Notes under the pieces: generated by a model | Seen by the model: the letters and a program-made list of their open reading frames with translations, nothing else | Database searches by the model: none | What the model was told of the DNA's origin: nothing | Shown: positions 17,508 through 33,457 of the stretch, piece after piece | How positions within the stretch are numbered: the first letter of the stretch is position 1 | Layout: every line of letters starts with the position of its first letter | Program-made: the position numbers and the translations under genes | Origin: an uncultured Brachyspira sp. | GTDB lineage: Bacteria; Spirochaetota; Brachyspiria; Brachyspirales; Brachyspiraceae | Assembly (NCBI RefSeq): GCF_944393015.1 | Contig: NZ_CALXYQ010000019.1 | Location: forward strand, 1-52,911 | Direction of reading: 5' to 3' | Length of the DNA stretch: 52,911 bases

Positions 17508-17515
17508 AATTGACT

Positions 17516-17850
17516 ATGCGGAGCGGGTAAACGCGGTATTTAAGCAACTAATACTGAGGAAAGTCCGTACCTCTAAAGGGCTTCATGCAAGCTAACGGCT
17601 TGAAGACGAAAGTCTATGGAAAGTGCAGCAGAAAATATACCGCCAATTTGGTAAGGGTGAAAAGGCATGGTAAGAGCATACCGCATTTATGGCAACATGA
17701 ATGGCAGTGTAAACCCCATGAGAGGCAAGAGCAAATAGAAACGGATTGCCCTTTTCCTATGTTTCAGGTGGCTCGCTAAAGCATTGTAGTGATATAATGC
17801 ACAGATAAATGTTTACCTTAAATGACAGAATACGGCTTATAGCTCCGCTT
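17516..17850 (+). ncRNA. rnpB: RNase P RNA
   Basis: This is the catalytic RNA that matures the 5' ends of tRNAs. The ends pair (GCGGAGC at 17518-17524 with GCTCCGC at 17842-17848). Conserved blocks are present in order: GAGGAAAGTCCGTACCTC, GAAAGTGCAGCAGAAA, AAGGGTGAAAAGGCATGGTA, GGTAAGAGCATACCGC, AAACCCC, and ACAGAATACGGCTTATAG near the 3' end. About 335 nt is normal for a bacterial type A RNA. An ORF reading through it is spurious. TTATTTTTT after the last stem resembles a terminator tail. Confidence 0.97.
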
Positions 17851-17926
17851 ATTTTTTATAATCATATTGTTATTTTTTTATTATGAATATATTATTTATT
17901 AATCATAAATAAAAATTGGTAAATAA

Positions 17927-25454: not shown

Positions 25455-25928
25455 ATGCCGGAAATAGAATCTAGGATACTAGGAAAAATAGAAGTTTCAG
25501 ATGATTCATTATATCACTTAAATGGTACTATATTAGCATTTGAGGCTTATGATGAATTTTATCTTGTCAATATGGACGAGGAAGGAACTTTTAAAATACT
25601 TCAGTCTAAAGATGATAAAAATGTATGCTTTATACTTATAGATCCATTTTTAATATTCAAAAATTATGAGCCTGATGTGTATGATGATGATATAAAATAT
25701 TTAGGTATAGAGAATAATGAAGATTTATACCTTCTTACTATTGTCAGCATTCCAAATAGTGATTTTAAATCTATGAGTGCTAATTTAGTAGCTCCTGTAG
25801 TTTTTAATATCAAAAATCATAAAGCTAAACAATGTACCGTTTCAGGTGATAAATACACAACTAGACATTCCATTCTTTTAGAAGATAATAATTCTGGCAA
25901 TACCAATACAGAAGAAAGGAGTTCATAA
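25455..25928 (+). CDS. fliW: Flagellar assembly factor FliW
   Basis: FliW binds flagellin and antagonises CsrA, so it couples flagellin secretion to translation. The 157-residue protein has the family patterns [34 protein letters not shown] and [11 protein letters not shown]-like [19 protein letters not shown] near the end. The hydrophilic tail of about 20 residues includes the csrA ribosome binding site in its codons. Ribosome site AAAGGAA; 2-nt gap to csrA indicates coupled translation. Confidence 0.93.
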
Positions 25929-25930
25929 TA

Positions 25931-26179
25931 ATGCTTGTACTTTCTAGAAAAATCAATCAAAGCATAGTAATAGGAGATAATATAGAAATAATGCTCGTAG
26001 ATATACGAGGCGATCAAATAAAGCTAGGTATTAATGCTCCTAAAAATGTAAAAATATTCAGAAAAGAAGTTTATGAAGAAATAGAAAGCCAAAACTTAGA
26101 GGCATCAAAAGAGGCTACTGCTGATAAATTGAATATTTTAAGTAATTTTGTAAAAAATAAATTTGGTAAAAAACAATAA
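25931..26179 (+). CDS. csrA: Carbon storage regulator CsrA
   Basis: The 82-residue RNA-binding protein represses translation by binding GGA motifs in mRNA leaders; with FliW it controls flagellin level. It opens [20 protein letters not shown] and has the RNA-binding Arg in [12 protein letters not shown] near residue 44. Its C-terminal tail is about 20 residues longer than the shortest CsrA proteins. The strong AAAGGAG site overlaps the last codons of fliW. GGA motifs also lie in the leaders of flgL and fliW, so autoregulation of the cluster is plausible. Confidence 0.95.
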
Positions 26180-27407: not shown

Positions 27408-28493
27408 ATGAAAAAAATAATATTCCTGATGCTGTTAATATTAAATTCTTTTGCTTTTGCTATAGATGATATAGTAGATAAAGATAATTTACATAATTTA
27501 ATAGAAGGTGTAACATCAACAAGATTCGGATCTGATAGAGTAAGTACAATATACGATTTTGCTCCGCTTATGAATCATAATACGCCTTTCAAATTAGGAG
27601 TATCAATATTAGATTTATCGCATATAGTAGATAATACTTATACAAATAAAGATGGAAAAAGAATATTAGCATTTTTGCCTAAAGGTTTCGTAGGATTAAG
27701 TTACGGTATATTTGGATTTGGATATCAATTCAGTTTATATAATGATCTTAGTGATAAAAATGCTCCTATTGCTCATAGCCATTCATTTTCTTTTGGTTTT
27801 GCTTCAGAAAAATATAGATTTACTTTGCCTATATCATTTTCTATTGCTGATCAAAATTATTATGGCGGAAAATTATCAATAAGTACAACACCTAAATTTT
27901 CATTTATGTTCAGAGGCGGATTATTAGATGAATTTACAATGTCGCTTCATTATGGCATACAGCTTTCAAGTGTTACAAATGATGTAGGCGGAACAAAAAT
28001 AGCTCCTATGGTATTAGGAGGCTCTCTATATGGAAGCATAATGCTTACAAGATTTGATAATTATCCTGTACAAATAAGTCTTCCTGTAAAATTAGCATTC
28101 TATTATGGTATAGGAGCAAGATGGGCTACTATAGATGCTGGATATGCTGAAGATGCTGTACTTAATTATCTTTATGATGATGACGGAGGAAGATCTACTG
28201 ACAGTATGTATTTCTATGTATTATTACCGGCAAAATTCGAGGCTAAATTAGGAGCAATATATACCTATGTAATGCCTAGACTTATGTTTGAGGGTAAAAT
28301 ATATAAAGTAGATGGTGAATATAATTTGCATTATGGAGTTGAGGGAGAAGCTCGAATTACTTTAGTAGAAAATTTCACTTTTGGTTTGACCGGATATGCC
28401 GAAGGTCAGGGAATAATGAAAAAAAGTGCTGACTTTAATATATATAATGCATTCGGCGGCGGAATAGATATTTGGGGAATTTGGCGATACTAA
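27408..28493 (+). CDS. Outer-membrane beta-barrel protein, possibly Vsp-like
   Basis: The 361-residue protein has a signal peptide (MKKIIFLMLLILNSFAFA) and a mature part with repeated amphipathic strands (VGLSYGIFGFGYQFSLY, SHSFSFGFASEKYRFTLPIS, FTFGLTGYAEGQG) ending IDIWGIWRY, a barrel-type aromatic end. Size and style are like the 39-kDa variable surface proteins of Brachyspira, but I cannot confirm that family. GTGGAGAA precedes the ATG, and a clear terminator follows 28 nt after the stop, so it is transcribed alone. Confidence 0.78.
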   Translation: MKKIIFLMLLILNSFAFAIDDIVDKDNLHNLIEGVTSTRFGSDRVSTIYDFAPLMNHNTPFKLGVSILDLSHIVDNTYTNKDGKRILAFLPKGFVGLSYGIFGFGYQFSLYNDLSDKNAPIAHSHSFSFGFASEKYRFTLPISFSIADQNYYGGKLSISTTPKFSFMFRGGLLDEFTMSLHYGIQLSSVTNDVGGTKIAPMVLGGSLYGSIMLTRFDNYPVQISLPVKLAFYYGIGARWATIDAGYAEDAVLNYLYDDDGGRSTDSMYFYVLLPAKFEAKLGAIYTYVMPRLMFEGKIYKVDGEYNLHYGVEGEARITLVENFTFGLTGYAEGQGIMKKSADFNIYNAFGGGIDIWGIWRY

Positions 28494-28866: not shown

Positions 28867-28894
28867 TTGCTTTTATCATACAAATTGTTATATT
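28867..28894 (+). promoter_or_regulatory. Promoter of microprotein unit 1
   Basis: TTGCTT (28867-28872) and TATATT (28889-28894) are 16 nt apart. The second unit has TTGCCT and TATATT with the same 16-nt spacing, followed in both by ATTA, which supports both as real promoters. Confidence 0.6.
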
Positions 28895-28900
28895 ATTAAT

Positions 28901-28989
28901 AGATGGTTGTGATAATTAATTACAATATAAGATTAATATATCACATAAAAATTAAGGTTTATTTATGAATGAAAAAAAGGAGGTATATT
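28901..28989 (+). promoter_or_regulatory. Conserved leader with mini-ORF, unit 1
   Basis: The leader contains TGTGATAATTAAT, TACAATATAAG and ATTAATATATCACA, which fold into a hairpin, followed by TTAAGGTTTATTTATGAATG. A mini-ORF (28965-28997, MNEKKEVYYD) begins in the leader and its stop lies inside the start of the 36-residue gene in another frame. The main ribosome site AAGGAGG lies within the mini-ORF. Confidence 0.55.
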
Positions 28990-29100
28990 ATGACTAAATT
29001 ATTTAATATCTTAAATAATGAATGTACTTTTCTTAATGATGAAGATTATAGGCTATTAATAAGTGAATATTACGAAATAATGAGGAAATATGAAGAATGA
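28990..29100 (+). CDS. 36-residue acidic microprotein, unit 1
   Basis: The peptide starts MTKLFNILNNECTFLNDEDY and ends with SEYYEIMRKYEE. It shares 20 of 36 positions with the peptide of unit 2, with no length difference: common are L4, N6, LNN 8-10, C12, L15, DE 17-18, Y20, LLISEY 22-27, I30 and EE 35-36. A very strong AAAGGAGG stands 8 nt upstream. It has neither a signal peptide nor a membrane segment, so it is probably cytoplasmic and helical. Function unknown; I know no family. The conservation between units, the ribosome sites and the private terminators argue for a real gene. Confidence 0.7.
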   Translation: MTKLFNILNNECTFLNDEDYRLLISEYYEIMRKYEE

Positions 29101-29122
29101 ACGATATTATTTGTTTCTCCTT

Positions 29123-29153
29123 AAGCCTATGCCATAACTGTATAGGCTTTTTT
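29123..29153 (+). terminator. Terminator of microprotein unit 1
   Basis: AAGCCTAT (29123-29130) pairs with ATAGGCTT (29142-29149) and runs into six T. It lies 22 nt after the stop codon. The terminator of unit 2 uses the same AAGCCTAT stem. Confidence 0.8.
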
Positions 29154-29198
29154 ATTATCTATGGTAAAGATTCATTAAAAACACAAATAAAAAAGTTA

Positions 29199-29226
29199 TT
29201 GCCTTTCCATATTAATTTATTATATT
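29199..29226 (+). promoter_or_regulatory. Promoter of microprotein unit 2
   Basis: TTGCCT (29199-29204), 16-nt spacer, TATATT (29221-29226), then ATTAG. Matches the promoter of unit 1 in boxes and spacing. Confidence 0.6.
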
Positions 29227-29232
29227 ATTAGT

Positions 29233-29319
29233 ACAAATCGTGATTATAAACTACAATATAAATTCAATGTATCACATAAAAAATTAAGGTTTATTTATGA
29301 ATGAAAGAAGGAGATTTAC
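29233..29319 (+). promoter_or_regulatory. Conserved leader with mini-ORF, unit 2
   Basis: The leader repeats the blocks of unit 1: CGTGAT, CTACAATATAA, TATCACATAAAAAATTAAGG and TTTATTTATGAATGAAA. GTGAT and ATCAC still pair. The mini-ORF (29297-29323, MNERRRFT) ends in a TGA that overlaps the main start codon as ATGA, so coupled translation is possible. Confidence 0.55.
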
Positions 29320-29430
29320 ATGAGCAGATTATTAAACAGTTTGAATAATGATTGTATTTTATTAGATGATGAAGAATATAATTTATTAATCAGCGAATAT
29401 AACGACATAATAGAAAATGTAGAAGAATAA
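29320..29430 (+). CDS. 36-residue acidic microprotein, unit 2
   Basis: The peptide starts MSRLLNSLNNDCILLDDEEY and ends with SEYNDIIENVEE. It has the same length as its neighbour, and changes between the two are mostly conservative (K/R, E/D, F/L, I/M), the pattern of selection on protein. AAGGAGA lies 7 nt upstream of the ATG. Acidic residues dominate; one Cys at position 12 is kept in both. Function unknown; candidates such as an antitoxin, adaptor or regulatory peptide are guesses. Confidence 0.7.
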   Translation: MSRLLNSLNNDCILLDDEEYNLLISEYNDIIENVEE

Positions 29431-29448
29431 GCTTTATTTTTTCCCACT

Positions 29449-29479
29449 AAGCCTATGCATTTATTGCATAGGTTTTTTT
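29449..29479 (+). terminator. Terminator of microprotein unit 2
   Basis: CCTATGCA (29452-29459) pairs with TGCATAGG (29465-29472), followed by seven T. It closes the second unit and is directly followed by family B repeat sequence (ACGCACGGT near 29510). Confidence 0.8.
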
Positions 29480-29860: not shown

Positions 29861-30028
29861 AAATGCATTATCATTTATGATATAAATTGTATGATAATAT
29901 AATTACATTTATGATTTATACTGCGTGCGATGGGGCTATGTTGGGTAAATAGAACTTAAAGAAGTTGACAATAAATAAAAAATATATATACTATACATTA
30001 ATATAGATTAATGATAAGAGGTGAATTT

Positions 30029-33000
30029 ATGGATTTAGAAAAAAAACTTGAATTATACTATGCTAAATCTTATATAAAAGATGACATAAAGAAATGCGAA
30101 GCTACAAATGATTTCAGCAAAATAGCAAAGTATCCTTATGATTATTTTCATGGAGGAGATGAATTTTTTAAAGATTATTTTTCTATAGAAGATGAGGCAT
30201 TAAAGAAAAGATATGAACATTTTATGAAGATACTCATTTACGGAAGAGATAAGGAAGGAGAAGGCGGAACTAGATATGTTATTTTTGATTATATAGTCAA
30301 TAGAGATTTTGAAAAGTCACTCAGATATCTTGTTTATGGATATGAGAGATATAAAGATCATGCAAGAACTTTAAATGGTGAAACTTTAATATATACAGTT
30401 TTTCAAGATTTTAATAAATACTTCAGTAAAGAGTTTGAAGAATACACAGATAAATATATTAATATTATTAATAACAATGATAATAAAAAAATATTAAAAA
30501 AAATGGACAGAGATGCTGTAATACCATTGATTGCAATATGTTCTGTTATAAAAAATAATAAAGAATGCGATGAGAAATATATAAATGCAGCTATAAAATC
30601 ATTCGATGTTCTTCCTAATCTTTATGATACTTTGAATGTAATCGCTGCTATTTTAGATCAAAATGAAGTTGTAAAAAATAAATTTATAGAAGTGCTTAAT
30701 AATAATAAAGAATATATTATTGATATGAATATTGAACTTGGAAAGTATTTAAGATTACTAGATTATACAAATCCTTATAAAGTTAAAGATAAATTTTTTA
30801 ATGCAATAAATTATCCGAATGATTTCGGATTTATAGCAAAACATTTTGAAGATTATTATCATTATGAGTTTATTTATGGAGCAAGAGATTTATATTTAAA
30901 TCATAAAGAAGATTTTTATAAAATTTATCATTTAGTAGGAAATAACCTAAATAATAATAGAAACAAAAGAATATTTATAGTGCTTAGCGGCGTTTTACTA
31001 GAACATAATGATAATAAAATAGATGCAAATAATTTAAAAATATCTTTAACTGTATTACAAACTATAACTAATAAATTTACAGAAGATAATTCGGAAGGAT
31101 ATAATACAAGACCTGTTTTCACCTCTACAGAAAAAATAGAAGAAATATTTGATAAAGATAAAAATAAACTCTTTGATGAGCTTATAAATTATTATACAGA
31201 CAAAAAAAATACATACCGTTTATACAGCAGAATGGATATAGCTCCTGGAGTTAGACTTGATATAGAACTTTATTATTTATACTCTTTATTTAATTATGAC
31301 ATTCCTGAAATGAAAAACTATAAAAAGTTTGCTCTTGATATTTTTAAATATCTGCCTGTTCAATTAGGTATAAGAAGATATATAGAAGTGCAGGCATCTA
31401 TAGGAACTAAAACTTTAAAAGAAGTTATTGATAGTTTATTAAATAATAAAGAATTAAATATTACATTAAAAGAAATTTTATTATCATATTATTTTGATTA
31501 TGCAGGAGATTTTTCAAATTATTATTATGACTATGGCGGAAAATATCTTCCTACTCTATATAAAGAACTTAGATGCATAGATGAAAATAATAATGTTATT
31601 ATAAATAGTGTAAAAGATGAATTATTTAAAAGCTATTTTGATGAAGTATTAAATATATTAAATGATGATAAGTTTATAAAAGATAATATAGCATTAAATA
31701 AAAATACAGCATTAGATATATTAAAGACTTTGTATAATAAATGTCATTATAATGATTATCATTTAGTTTATACAGTTCTTGAAAATACAAAGAGAGCCGA
31801 AGTAAAAAGACATTGTATTAAAGTTATTTCTGATAATGAAGCTATTACAAGACCTTATGTTGAGAAGATGTCAGAGAAAGCGAGATCATCAGAACTTAAA
31901 GGAGCATTAAAAAATATTATTAAGAATTGGAATCTTAAAAAATACGGCGACTATTTTAAAAGTATTGATGAGGCTTTGGAGTTTATTGACACTTACTACA
32001 ATACAAACTATGAAAAAAATATAAAGTTCTTAGACGATGTTCATTTGACAAAAGTTTTATACAATAATGGAACATTAGCTGATGAGAGAATATTTAAATA
32101 TATCATTATGGAATATATGAATTTAGTAGAGCCATCAAGATTAAAAGACTGCGACATGCTTGCTGAAATTCTTGATACTACTTCATTTACTAATGCTTTG
32201 GAAATGCTATATATTCATTGGAAAGATTCTAATTATGAAGCTACAAAAAAGAATATTTTAATACCTTATTTAATATATTCTGATGATTTGAAAATAGATA
32301 AAGTTTATCCTCTTATAAAAGAATTTGCTAAAGGTTCACGTACTGTTATGGCAGCATTTATTGTAAAATGTATGGCATTAAACGGAAAGAACTATGCATT
32401 AATACTAGTAGACGGACTTACAAGAAAATCACCTACAGCAAAAATAAAAGAAGTGGCAATAGAAACTATGGAGAACGCTGCTTATATGCTTGATATGACA
32501 GCTGATGAACTTTCAGACAGAATAATACCTAATTTCGGATTCAGTCAAAAAGGTGAAAGAGTTCTAAATTACGGCGGAGAAGCAAGAAGAACATTCACAT
32601 TATCAATAGACAATAATCTTGAACTTACAATTACAGATAATGAAAAACAAAAGATAATAAAATCACTTCCAGCACCAAACAGCAAAGATGACAAAGTAGA
32701 AGCTGACAGAGCTAAGAAAGAATGCACTACTCTCAAGAAAGAAATAAAAACTTTGATACAAAACCAAAAAATAAGACTTCAAAAAGTTTTATTAAACGGC
32801 AGAAAATGGACTTACAATAATTTCAAAACTGTATTCGTTGAGAACCCAATAATGAACATATTTGCTTTGAAACTTATTTGGGGTGCTTATGATGAGAACA
32901 ACAATTTAATACAGAGCTTTAGATATATGGAAGACGGCACTTTCAATACAGTTGATGAAGAAGAGTACAGTTTACCGGAGAACAGTTTAATAACTTTGGT

Positions 33001-33457
33001 TCACCCTTCAGAATTAGATGCTGATACTATAGCCAAATGGAAAACTCAATTATCAGATTATGAGATATCACAGCCTATAGAACAGCTTGATTTCAAATAT
33101 GAAGAGATTAAAGAAGAAGACATAAAAGAAGATAAAATTCATTCTCTTGACTCTAAAACAATAAAGGCTGGTGTATTGATGTCATTAGCCACTAAGTATG
33201 ATATGGCTAGAGGAGAAGCTATGGACGGAGGAACTTTCTGCGAGTACATATTAAAAGATACTTATCTCAATATTGCTGTTCATATATCATTTGATTATAT
33301 GTACTTTGGAATGGACGCTAATGAAGATATTGAGTTTGGAGATATAGAGTTTTGCGAGATAAATGACGGCATTGAAACTTTGATTAATCCTTTAAAAGTT
33401 AATAAGAGATTTGCTTGTTCAATTTATAGTATAGTGAAAAGTGTTTTTGGAGATTAA
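30029..33457 (+). CDS. Large DUF4132-domain protein
   Basis: The protein has 1142 residues from the ATG at 30029, which has GAGGTG 9 nt upstream; a longer reading from 30011 would include this ribosome site. The C-terminal third carries the DUF4132 pattern: RTFTLSIDNNLELTITDNE, then KLIWGAYDENNNLIQSFRYM, LVHPSELDADTIAKWKTQL and SDYEISQPIEQL. The long N-terminal part is rich in Tyr, Lys and Asp and looks like helical repeats (HEAT/ARM-like), for example TVMAAFIVKCMALNGKNYAL. Proteins of this sort (MolR-related) are of unknown function, often found with WGR domains; none is seen here. It is a single-gene unit with its own terminator and repeats on both sides. Confidence 0.85.
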   Translation: MDLEKKLELYYAKSYIKDDIKKCEATNDFSKIAKYPYDYFHGGDEFFKDYFSIEDEALKKRYEHFMKILIYGRDKEGEGGTRYVIFDYIVNRDFEKSLRYLVYGYERYKDHARTLNGETLIYTVFQDFNKYFSKEFEEYTDKYINIINNNDNKKILKKMDRDAVIPLIAICSVIKNNKECDEKYINAAIKSFDVLPNLYDTLNVIAAILDQNEVVKNKFIEVLNNNKEYIIDMNIELGKYLRLLDYTNPYKVKDKFFNAINYPNDFGFIAKHFEDYYHYEFIYGARDLYLNHKEDFYKIYHLVGNNLNNNRNKRIFIVLSGVLLEHNDNKIDANNLKISLTVLQTITNKFTEDNSEGYNTRPVFTSTEKIEEIFDKDKNKLFDELINYYTDKKNTYRLYSRMDIAPGVRLDIELYYLYSLFNYDIPEMKNYKKFALDIFKYLPVQLGIRRYIEVQASIGTKTLKEVIDSLLNNKELNITLKEILLSYYFDYAGDFSNYYYDYGGKYLPTLYKELRCIDENNNVIINSVKDELFKSYFDEVLNILNDDKFIKDNIALNKNTALDILKTLYNKCHYNDYHLVYTVLENTKRAEVKRHCIKVISDNEAITRPYVEKMSEKARSSELKGALKNIIKNWNLKKYGDYFKSIDEALEFIDTYYNTNYEKNIKFLDDVHLTKVLYNNGTLADERIFKYIIMEYMNLVEPSRLKDCDMLAEILDTTSFTNALEMLYIHWKDSNYEATKKNILIPYLIYSDDLKIDKVYPLIKEFAKGSRTVMAAFIVKCMALNGKNYALILVDGLTRKSPTAKIKEVAIETMENAAYMLDMTADELSDRIIPNFGFSQKGERVLNYGGEARRTFTLSIDNNLELTITDNEKQKIIKSLPAPNSKDDKVEADRAKKECTTLKKEIKTLIQNQKIRLQKVLLNGRKWTYNNFKTVFVENPIMNIFALKLIWGAYDENNNLIQSFRYMEDGTFNTVDEEEYSLPENSLITLVHPSELDADTIAKWKTQLSDYEISQPIEQLDFKYEEIKEEDIKEDKIHSLDSKTIKAGVLMSLATKYDMARGEAMDGGTFCEYILKDTYLNIAVHISFDYMYFGMDANEDIEFGDIEFCEINDGIETLINPLKVNKRFACSIYSIVKSVFGD

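Follow-up and report, generated by a model that had tools for sequence, protein, structure and literature searches.

Two tandem microprotein genes of an uncultured Brachyspira sp. belong to a seemingly undescribed family with its own leader element

The window analyzed here, a stretch of 52,911 nt from an uncultured Brachyspira sp. (contig NZ_CALXYQ010000019.1), contains two short adjacent units between an outer-membrane-type gene (27408-28493, named by eye) and a DUF4132 gene (30011-33457). The units raise the question of whether they are real small genes, and which of their densely packed signals are genuine features. They are 77% identical across 290 nt (E = 1.3e-48), the ORF starts at 28990 and 29320 are spaced by exactly 330 nt, and the two peptides are identical at 20 of 36 positions. 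Each unit consists of a promoter-like sequence (TTGCYT-16-TATATT), a leader, a Shine-Dalgarno sequence, a 36-codon ORF, and a strong intrinsic terminator (Table 1). The promoters, ORFs, overlapping mini-ORFs and terminators named in a preliminary description of the locus were all found as letters at the places given there. For the terminators the statistical evidence was clear, i.e., four were detected in the intergenic region versus 0.1 expected from shuffled sequences, and the fold z values in the two units were -4.5 and -5.5. In a region this rich in AT, the promoter hexamers alone did not exceed the chance level (15 found versus 17 expected), but despite this they are conserved between paralogues as well as orthologues. 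We interpret the two units as tandem paralogues, each of them a complete monocistronic gene, and as real small genes.

Table 1. Features of the two tandem units, with positions in the 52,911 nt window
Feature	Position	Strand	Basis and remarks
Promoter-like TTGCTT-16-TATATT, unit 1	28867..28894	+	Sequence; kept in orthologues and in unit 2
Leader element, unit 1: GTGAT-N5-ATTACAATATA-N10-TATCACATAAA	28909..28949	+	Three half-sites, 41 nt
Mini-ORF MNEKKEVYYD	28965..28997	+	Stop overlaps main start; judged non-functional (frame and presence not conserved)
Shine-Dalgarno AAGGAGG, unit 1	28977..28983	+	Sequence; GGAG-type site retained among u-type members
Acidic microprotein 1, 36 aa (MTKLFNILNNECTFLNDEDYRLLISEYYEIMRKYEE)	28990..29100	+	Profile E = 1.7e-18; dN/dS about 0.15, nine orthologues
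Intrinsic terminator, unit 1	29123..29149	+	Fold z; shuffle comparison
Promoter-like TTGCCT-16-TATATT, unit 2	29199..29226	+	Conserved between paralogues and orthologues
Leader element, unit 2: GTGAT-N5-ACTACAATATA-N10-TATCACATAAA	29240..29280	+	Gap-free alignment; family-only pattern matches
Mini-ORF MNERRRFT	29297..29323	+	Stop overlaps main start; judged non-functional, not conserved
Shine-Dalgarno AAGGAGA, unit 2	29308..29314	+	Sequence
Acidic microprotein 2, 36 aa (MSRLLNSLNNDCILLDDEEYNLLISEYNDIIENVEE)	29320..29430	+	Profile E = 6.4e-18; dN/dS about 0.16
Intrinsic terminator, unit 2	29449..29475	+	Fold z; shuffle comparison

Selection on the peptides was analyzed with pairwise NG86 dN/dS values, which were pooled per orthologue group. 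The pooled values were 0.145 for u1 (nine species), 0.164 for u2 (eight species), and 0.154 for c (five species), and a value of 0.54 was obtained for the c2 set, which comprises three close relatives with too few changes to be informative. Non-overlapping pairs contained 28 synonymous and 21 nonsynonymous changes; with 16% synonymous changes expected the excess had a P of 4e-11, and with 30% expected the P was 7e-5. The dN/dS check that had been proposed for the locus yielded about 0.15, not a value near 1, and indicates purifying selection. Judging from the synonymous/nonsynonymous test, the peptides are products of translated genes.

A family profile retrieved 52 stand-alone small ORFs (E <= 4.1e-4) with lengths of about 28-59 codons in 18 of the 26 Brachyspira genomes, and each carrying genome has one to six copies. 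The further copies that the preliminary description had asked for are, hence, present. The next matches below these 52 were weaker and were mostly located within large frames. In the source genome there is a third copy (G000:C10:49793-49882) in addition to the window pair. Among 296 Spirochaetota genomes convincing matches were confined to Brachyspira and none was found in the other 270, a scan of public genomes yielded Brachyspira records only, B. innocens and B. hampsonii among them, and a search of viral contigs and plasmids gave no relatives. The core consensus is [LFI][DNT][DE][DE][DE]YxxLIxEYN[DE]II (short form LxDEEYxxLIxEYNDII); Y20, E26 and Y27 do not vary at all, L23 and I24 hardly vary, and nearly all members are acidic. 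Both window peptides are encoded by stand-alone small ORFs and have the invariant Y...EY core that marks the family. Neither Pfam nor NCBIfam gave a match above the curated cut-off for the peptides. Weak matches in large proteins were rejected as chance, e.g., one to the C-terminal region of a G022 protein resembling AAA+ ATPases (E about 0.01, one of 26 genomes). The suggestion of a small regulated gene family without a described counterpart has stood the comparison, with 52 members in 18 genomes, purifying selection on the orthologues, no match to a described family, and a leader element private to the family.

The structure of the products was modeled with AlphaFold2 on 35 sequences, and helices were predicted for residues 2-9 and 17-35, with two helices in microprotein 2. 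The mean pLDDT was 79, and it was about 90 across residues 21-30. The helical hydrophobic moment was larger than the shuffle mean in 34 of 35 members, the individual tests being mostly not significant. A Foldseek search with the 36-residue model gave no match, the fold being too small, and a profile search of the PDB with the peptide family revealed nothing credible. We regard a small helical acidic protein that would bind a partner protein as the most likely product. Bacillus subtilis Sda and MciZ are encoded by stand-alone genes, have about 40-46 residues, are largely helical, and bind a larger protein. The Brachyspira microproteins resemble them in being stand-alone, small and predicted to be helical, and, by analogy, possibly also in binding a partner; in contrast, the PDB profile search revealed no sequence relation, and the microproteins are found in Brachyspira only.

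Next, the genomic context of the copies was compared. The neighbourhood of the window pair is retained in G004-G007, G009, G024 and G025. About 3 kb upstream of the pair, fliW (25455-25928) is followed by an adjacent ORF of csrA position and size (82 aa, 25931-26179). Further copies are found directly downstream of rpsT (loci L111:3181-4546, L061, L181, L182, L171, L172, L178 and L180), and they differ in type, i.e., c-type on contig 10 of G000, u-type in G008, G010 and G016, and y-type in G002, G019 and G021. In G015 a triple tandem of family genes lies directly downstream of rpsT, and at L061:1514-2380 three tandem family genes, two with u-type leaders and one with a c-type leader, have rpsT on one side and a PepSY-like gene on the other. 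The site is a hotspot for differing subtypes with one to three copies, and the G011-G014/G017 clade has a cleanly empty rpsT site. Another group lies directly 3' of a flavin-reductase/rubredoxin-like gene, which was named by eye (loci L102, L103, L106, L108, L109, L110 and L099:1561-1740). The subtype at this second site is shorter (28-32 aa), and in several genomes a hairpin-like inverted repeat is found in between.

The leader was described before as containing conserved blocks, and this was borne out by the comparison. An element GTRAT-N5-RYYACAANA-N13-TCACA followed by WAAA is present without any indel in 20 leaders from 13 genomes. The half-sites GTRAT, RYYAC and ATCAC begin at element positions 1, 11 and 32 and are, thus, 10 and 21 apart, which equals one and two helical turns. 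When the 41-nt pattern was searched in the 26 Brachyspira genomes with zero to one mismatch, 20 matches were found, and all 20 were located at family genes. With two mismatches there were three matches outside of family genes, versus two for a reversed-pattern control, and a genome-wide regulon was rejected on the basis of these numbers. The -10 box is located 6-22 nt upstream of the element, and this variable distance places the element outside of the core promoter. Clearly more than half of the examined family leaders contain TCACAWAA, while about 0.01-0.02 are expected per leader. The c-type genes have only TATCACAAAAA of the element, at a different distance (TCACAWAA at 33-38 nt), and it is missing from the y-, r- and x-type genes, showing that the element is dispensable for the family as a whole. 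Operators of the CRP/Rex type are TGTGA-N6-TCACA palindromes. The leader element has similar inverted half-sites (GTGA...TCAC), but the spacing is one base longer in the 20 leaders (GTRAT-N5-RYYAC), the second half-site mostly reads TTAC or CTAC, a third half-site follows 21 bp further, and there is no genome-wide regulon; the CRP/Rex-type palindrome itself was not found in the element. The element is unusual in being private to family genes, and it appears to be new.

Such an element could act in the DNA or in the RNA. The preliminary description had proposed a GTGAT/ATCAC pairing and a covariance analysis of the leader. The letters of the pairing are indeed present, but the RNA stem could not be upheld. 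It showed no covariation and is broken in 6 of 20 sequences, i.e., at position 3 in G008, G010 and G016, in which ATCAC is still kept, and at position 5 in G004, G005 and G006. Neither for this distal, long-loop hairpin nor for an alternative near hairpin (GTGAT/ATYAC, 5-nt loop) was there a single case of changes on both sides, and both candidates were rejected because of the missing compensatory changes, the broken pairs and the lack of fold energy. Folding of the two leaders gave z values of -0.8 and +1.4, thus no fold signal, and the consensus fold contained zero base pairs. With Rfam covariance models at the gathering score the window yielded no leader family, only RNase P and a tRNA; the former is a class A RNase P RNA at 17515-17855. 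It was also considered that the transcript of about 250 nt is a dual-function RNA, both regulatory RNA and mRNA, with the leader blocks as single-stranded sites for base-pairing or proteins. We regard this as unlikely, although several observations fit. The predicted transcripts are short and separately terminated, the conserved blocks TACAATATA and TATCACATAAAA fall inside the inferred RNA, and in u-type genes TCACA keeps a rather uniform spacing of 46-50 nt to the start codon, as an RNA-level role would predict, which speaks against an operator. In addition, the 3'UTR of unit 1 (29100-29123) contains TTTCTCCTT, which can pair with the AAGGAGG of the same unit, and this CUCCUU complement of the Shine-Dalgarno sequence is kept in eight of nine orthologues. 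However, it is not shared by unit 2, in which the pairing is weak, and since the duplex energy does not exceed that expected from composition (P 0.05-0.40), anti-Shine-Dalgarno pairing was rejected in spite of the conserved letters. Furthermore, the peptide is under clear selection, and rigidly spaced, phased half-sites fit DNA more naturally. Based on the lack of an RNA fold signal, the phased and rigidly spaced half-sites, and the variable distance to the -10 box, we favour the interpretation that the leader element is a dedicated operator, i.e., protein-bound DNA, and an unstructured RNA signal seems less likely.

The mini-ORF had been taken as a hint to translational control, with ribosomes reinitiating at, or being coupled to, the peptide start. 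It is present in both window units, and an AAGG is located about 8 nt ahead of its ATG. Nevertheless, a comparison of 22 aligned leaders makes such a role very improbable, because neither frame nor presence is conserved. It is largely the closest relatives that have an upstream ATG whose frame differs from that of the peptide and ends in an overlapping stop. In G004 (u1), G009 (u1 and u2) and G015 (u2), the upstream ATG shares the reading frame of the peptide. G005, G006 and G010 have no ATG within 60 nt ahead of the start, the sole upstream ATG of G008 and G016 leads to a stop about 20 nt before the start, and in u2 of G023 the upstream frame ends after MN. A conserved mini-ORF with overlapping stop, as expected for a uORF-controlled gene, was therefore not found. 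The overlapping stop itself comes free with the main start ATGA, which automatically terminates every frame that an upstream ATG opens in the matching register. The mini-ORF is, thus, judged to be a by-product of the purine-rich ribosome-binding region without a conserved role. The arrangement of short ORF, terminator and large downstream gene could also indicate leader peptides of an attenuator, or a structured riboswitch, ahead of the DUF4132 gene. This we consider extremely improbable, since about 535 nt separate the second terminator from the latter gene, which is preceded by a promoter-like sequence of its own (TTGACA-16-TATACT, 29965-29992), there is no Rfam match, the amino acid sequence is conserved without a run of control codons, and the family also sits elsewhere, i.e., after rpsT or the rubredoxin-like gene. 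Precursors of modified peptides (RiPPs), peptide signals, or small toxins/antitoxins would agree with multi-copy tandem short genes whose acidic helical segment is similar to peptide leaders in general. However, it is the C-terminal part that is conserved, a residue-rich core and a hydrophobic segment are both missing, and neither maturation nor toxin genes were noticed beside the examined copies, so that this reading is also quite improbable.

Taken together, we propose that the units are tandem paralogues encoding Brachyspira-specific acidic cytosolic proteins that would be operator-controlled and would dock onto a partner, with the mini-ORF as a by-product; as a whole, this model has in our view about an even chance of being correct. 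The selected coding frame, the Shine-Dalgarno sequence, the terminator, and the family-exclusive leader element with fixed spacing are the parts of it that are established at the sequence level. Transcription would start just 5' of the leader element. A dedicated DNA-binding regulator, either a repressor or an autoregulatory complex, would bind the three phased half-sites; with their spacings of 10 and 21 bp, GTRAT and both copies of the reverse half-site would lie on one face of the helix. The regulator would act in the initial transcribed region and would control expression. The protein would fold into a short helix and a longer acidic helix, and its conserved Y-L-I-Y-I face would dock onto the partner protein, similar to small bacterial inhibitor or adaptor proteins. 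A more speculative version, which we consider rather unlikely, is a self-contained cassette, in which a regulator serving this family alone, and possibly bound by the microprotein, would recognize the tripartite element. This would be a private feedback circuit that was duplicated and moved around Brachyspira chromosomes, notably to the rpsT site.

The family is seemingly undescribed and appears to be new, while lineage-specific small proteins are a known kind. No described counterpart turned up in the libraries and publications that were searched, and these publications held nothing relevant on small proteins, RNA-seq or start-site maps of Brachyspira. Like the GMSC smORF families (PMC11364881), the Brachyspira family is lineage-restricted, conserved, shorter than 100 codons, and devoid of a known domain; in contrast to them, it has the private leader element as an extra feature. 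Brachyspira is not mentioned in the text of the GMSC paper (PMC11364881). The comparison across species was able to part real features, i.e., the peptide, the element and the terminator, from by-products such as the mini-ORF and the apparent stem. Brachyspira, a genus that includes gut pathogens and commensals, gains a seemingly undescribed small-protein family, of which a genome can carry as many as six copies. The leader element offers a direct handle on the regulator, and the target could be caught through the invariant Y/EY face.
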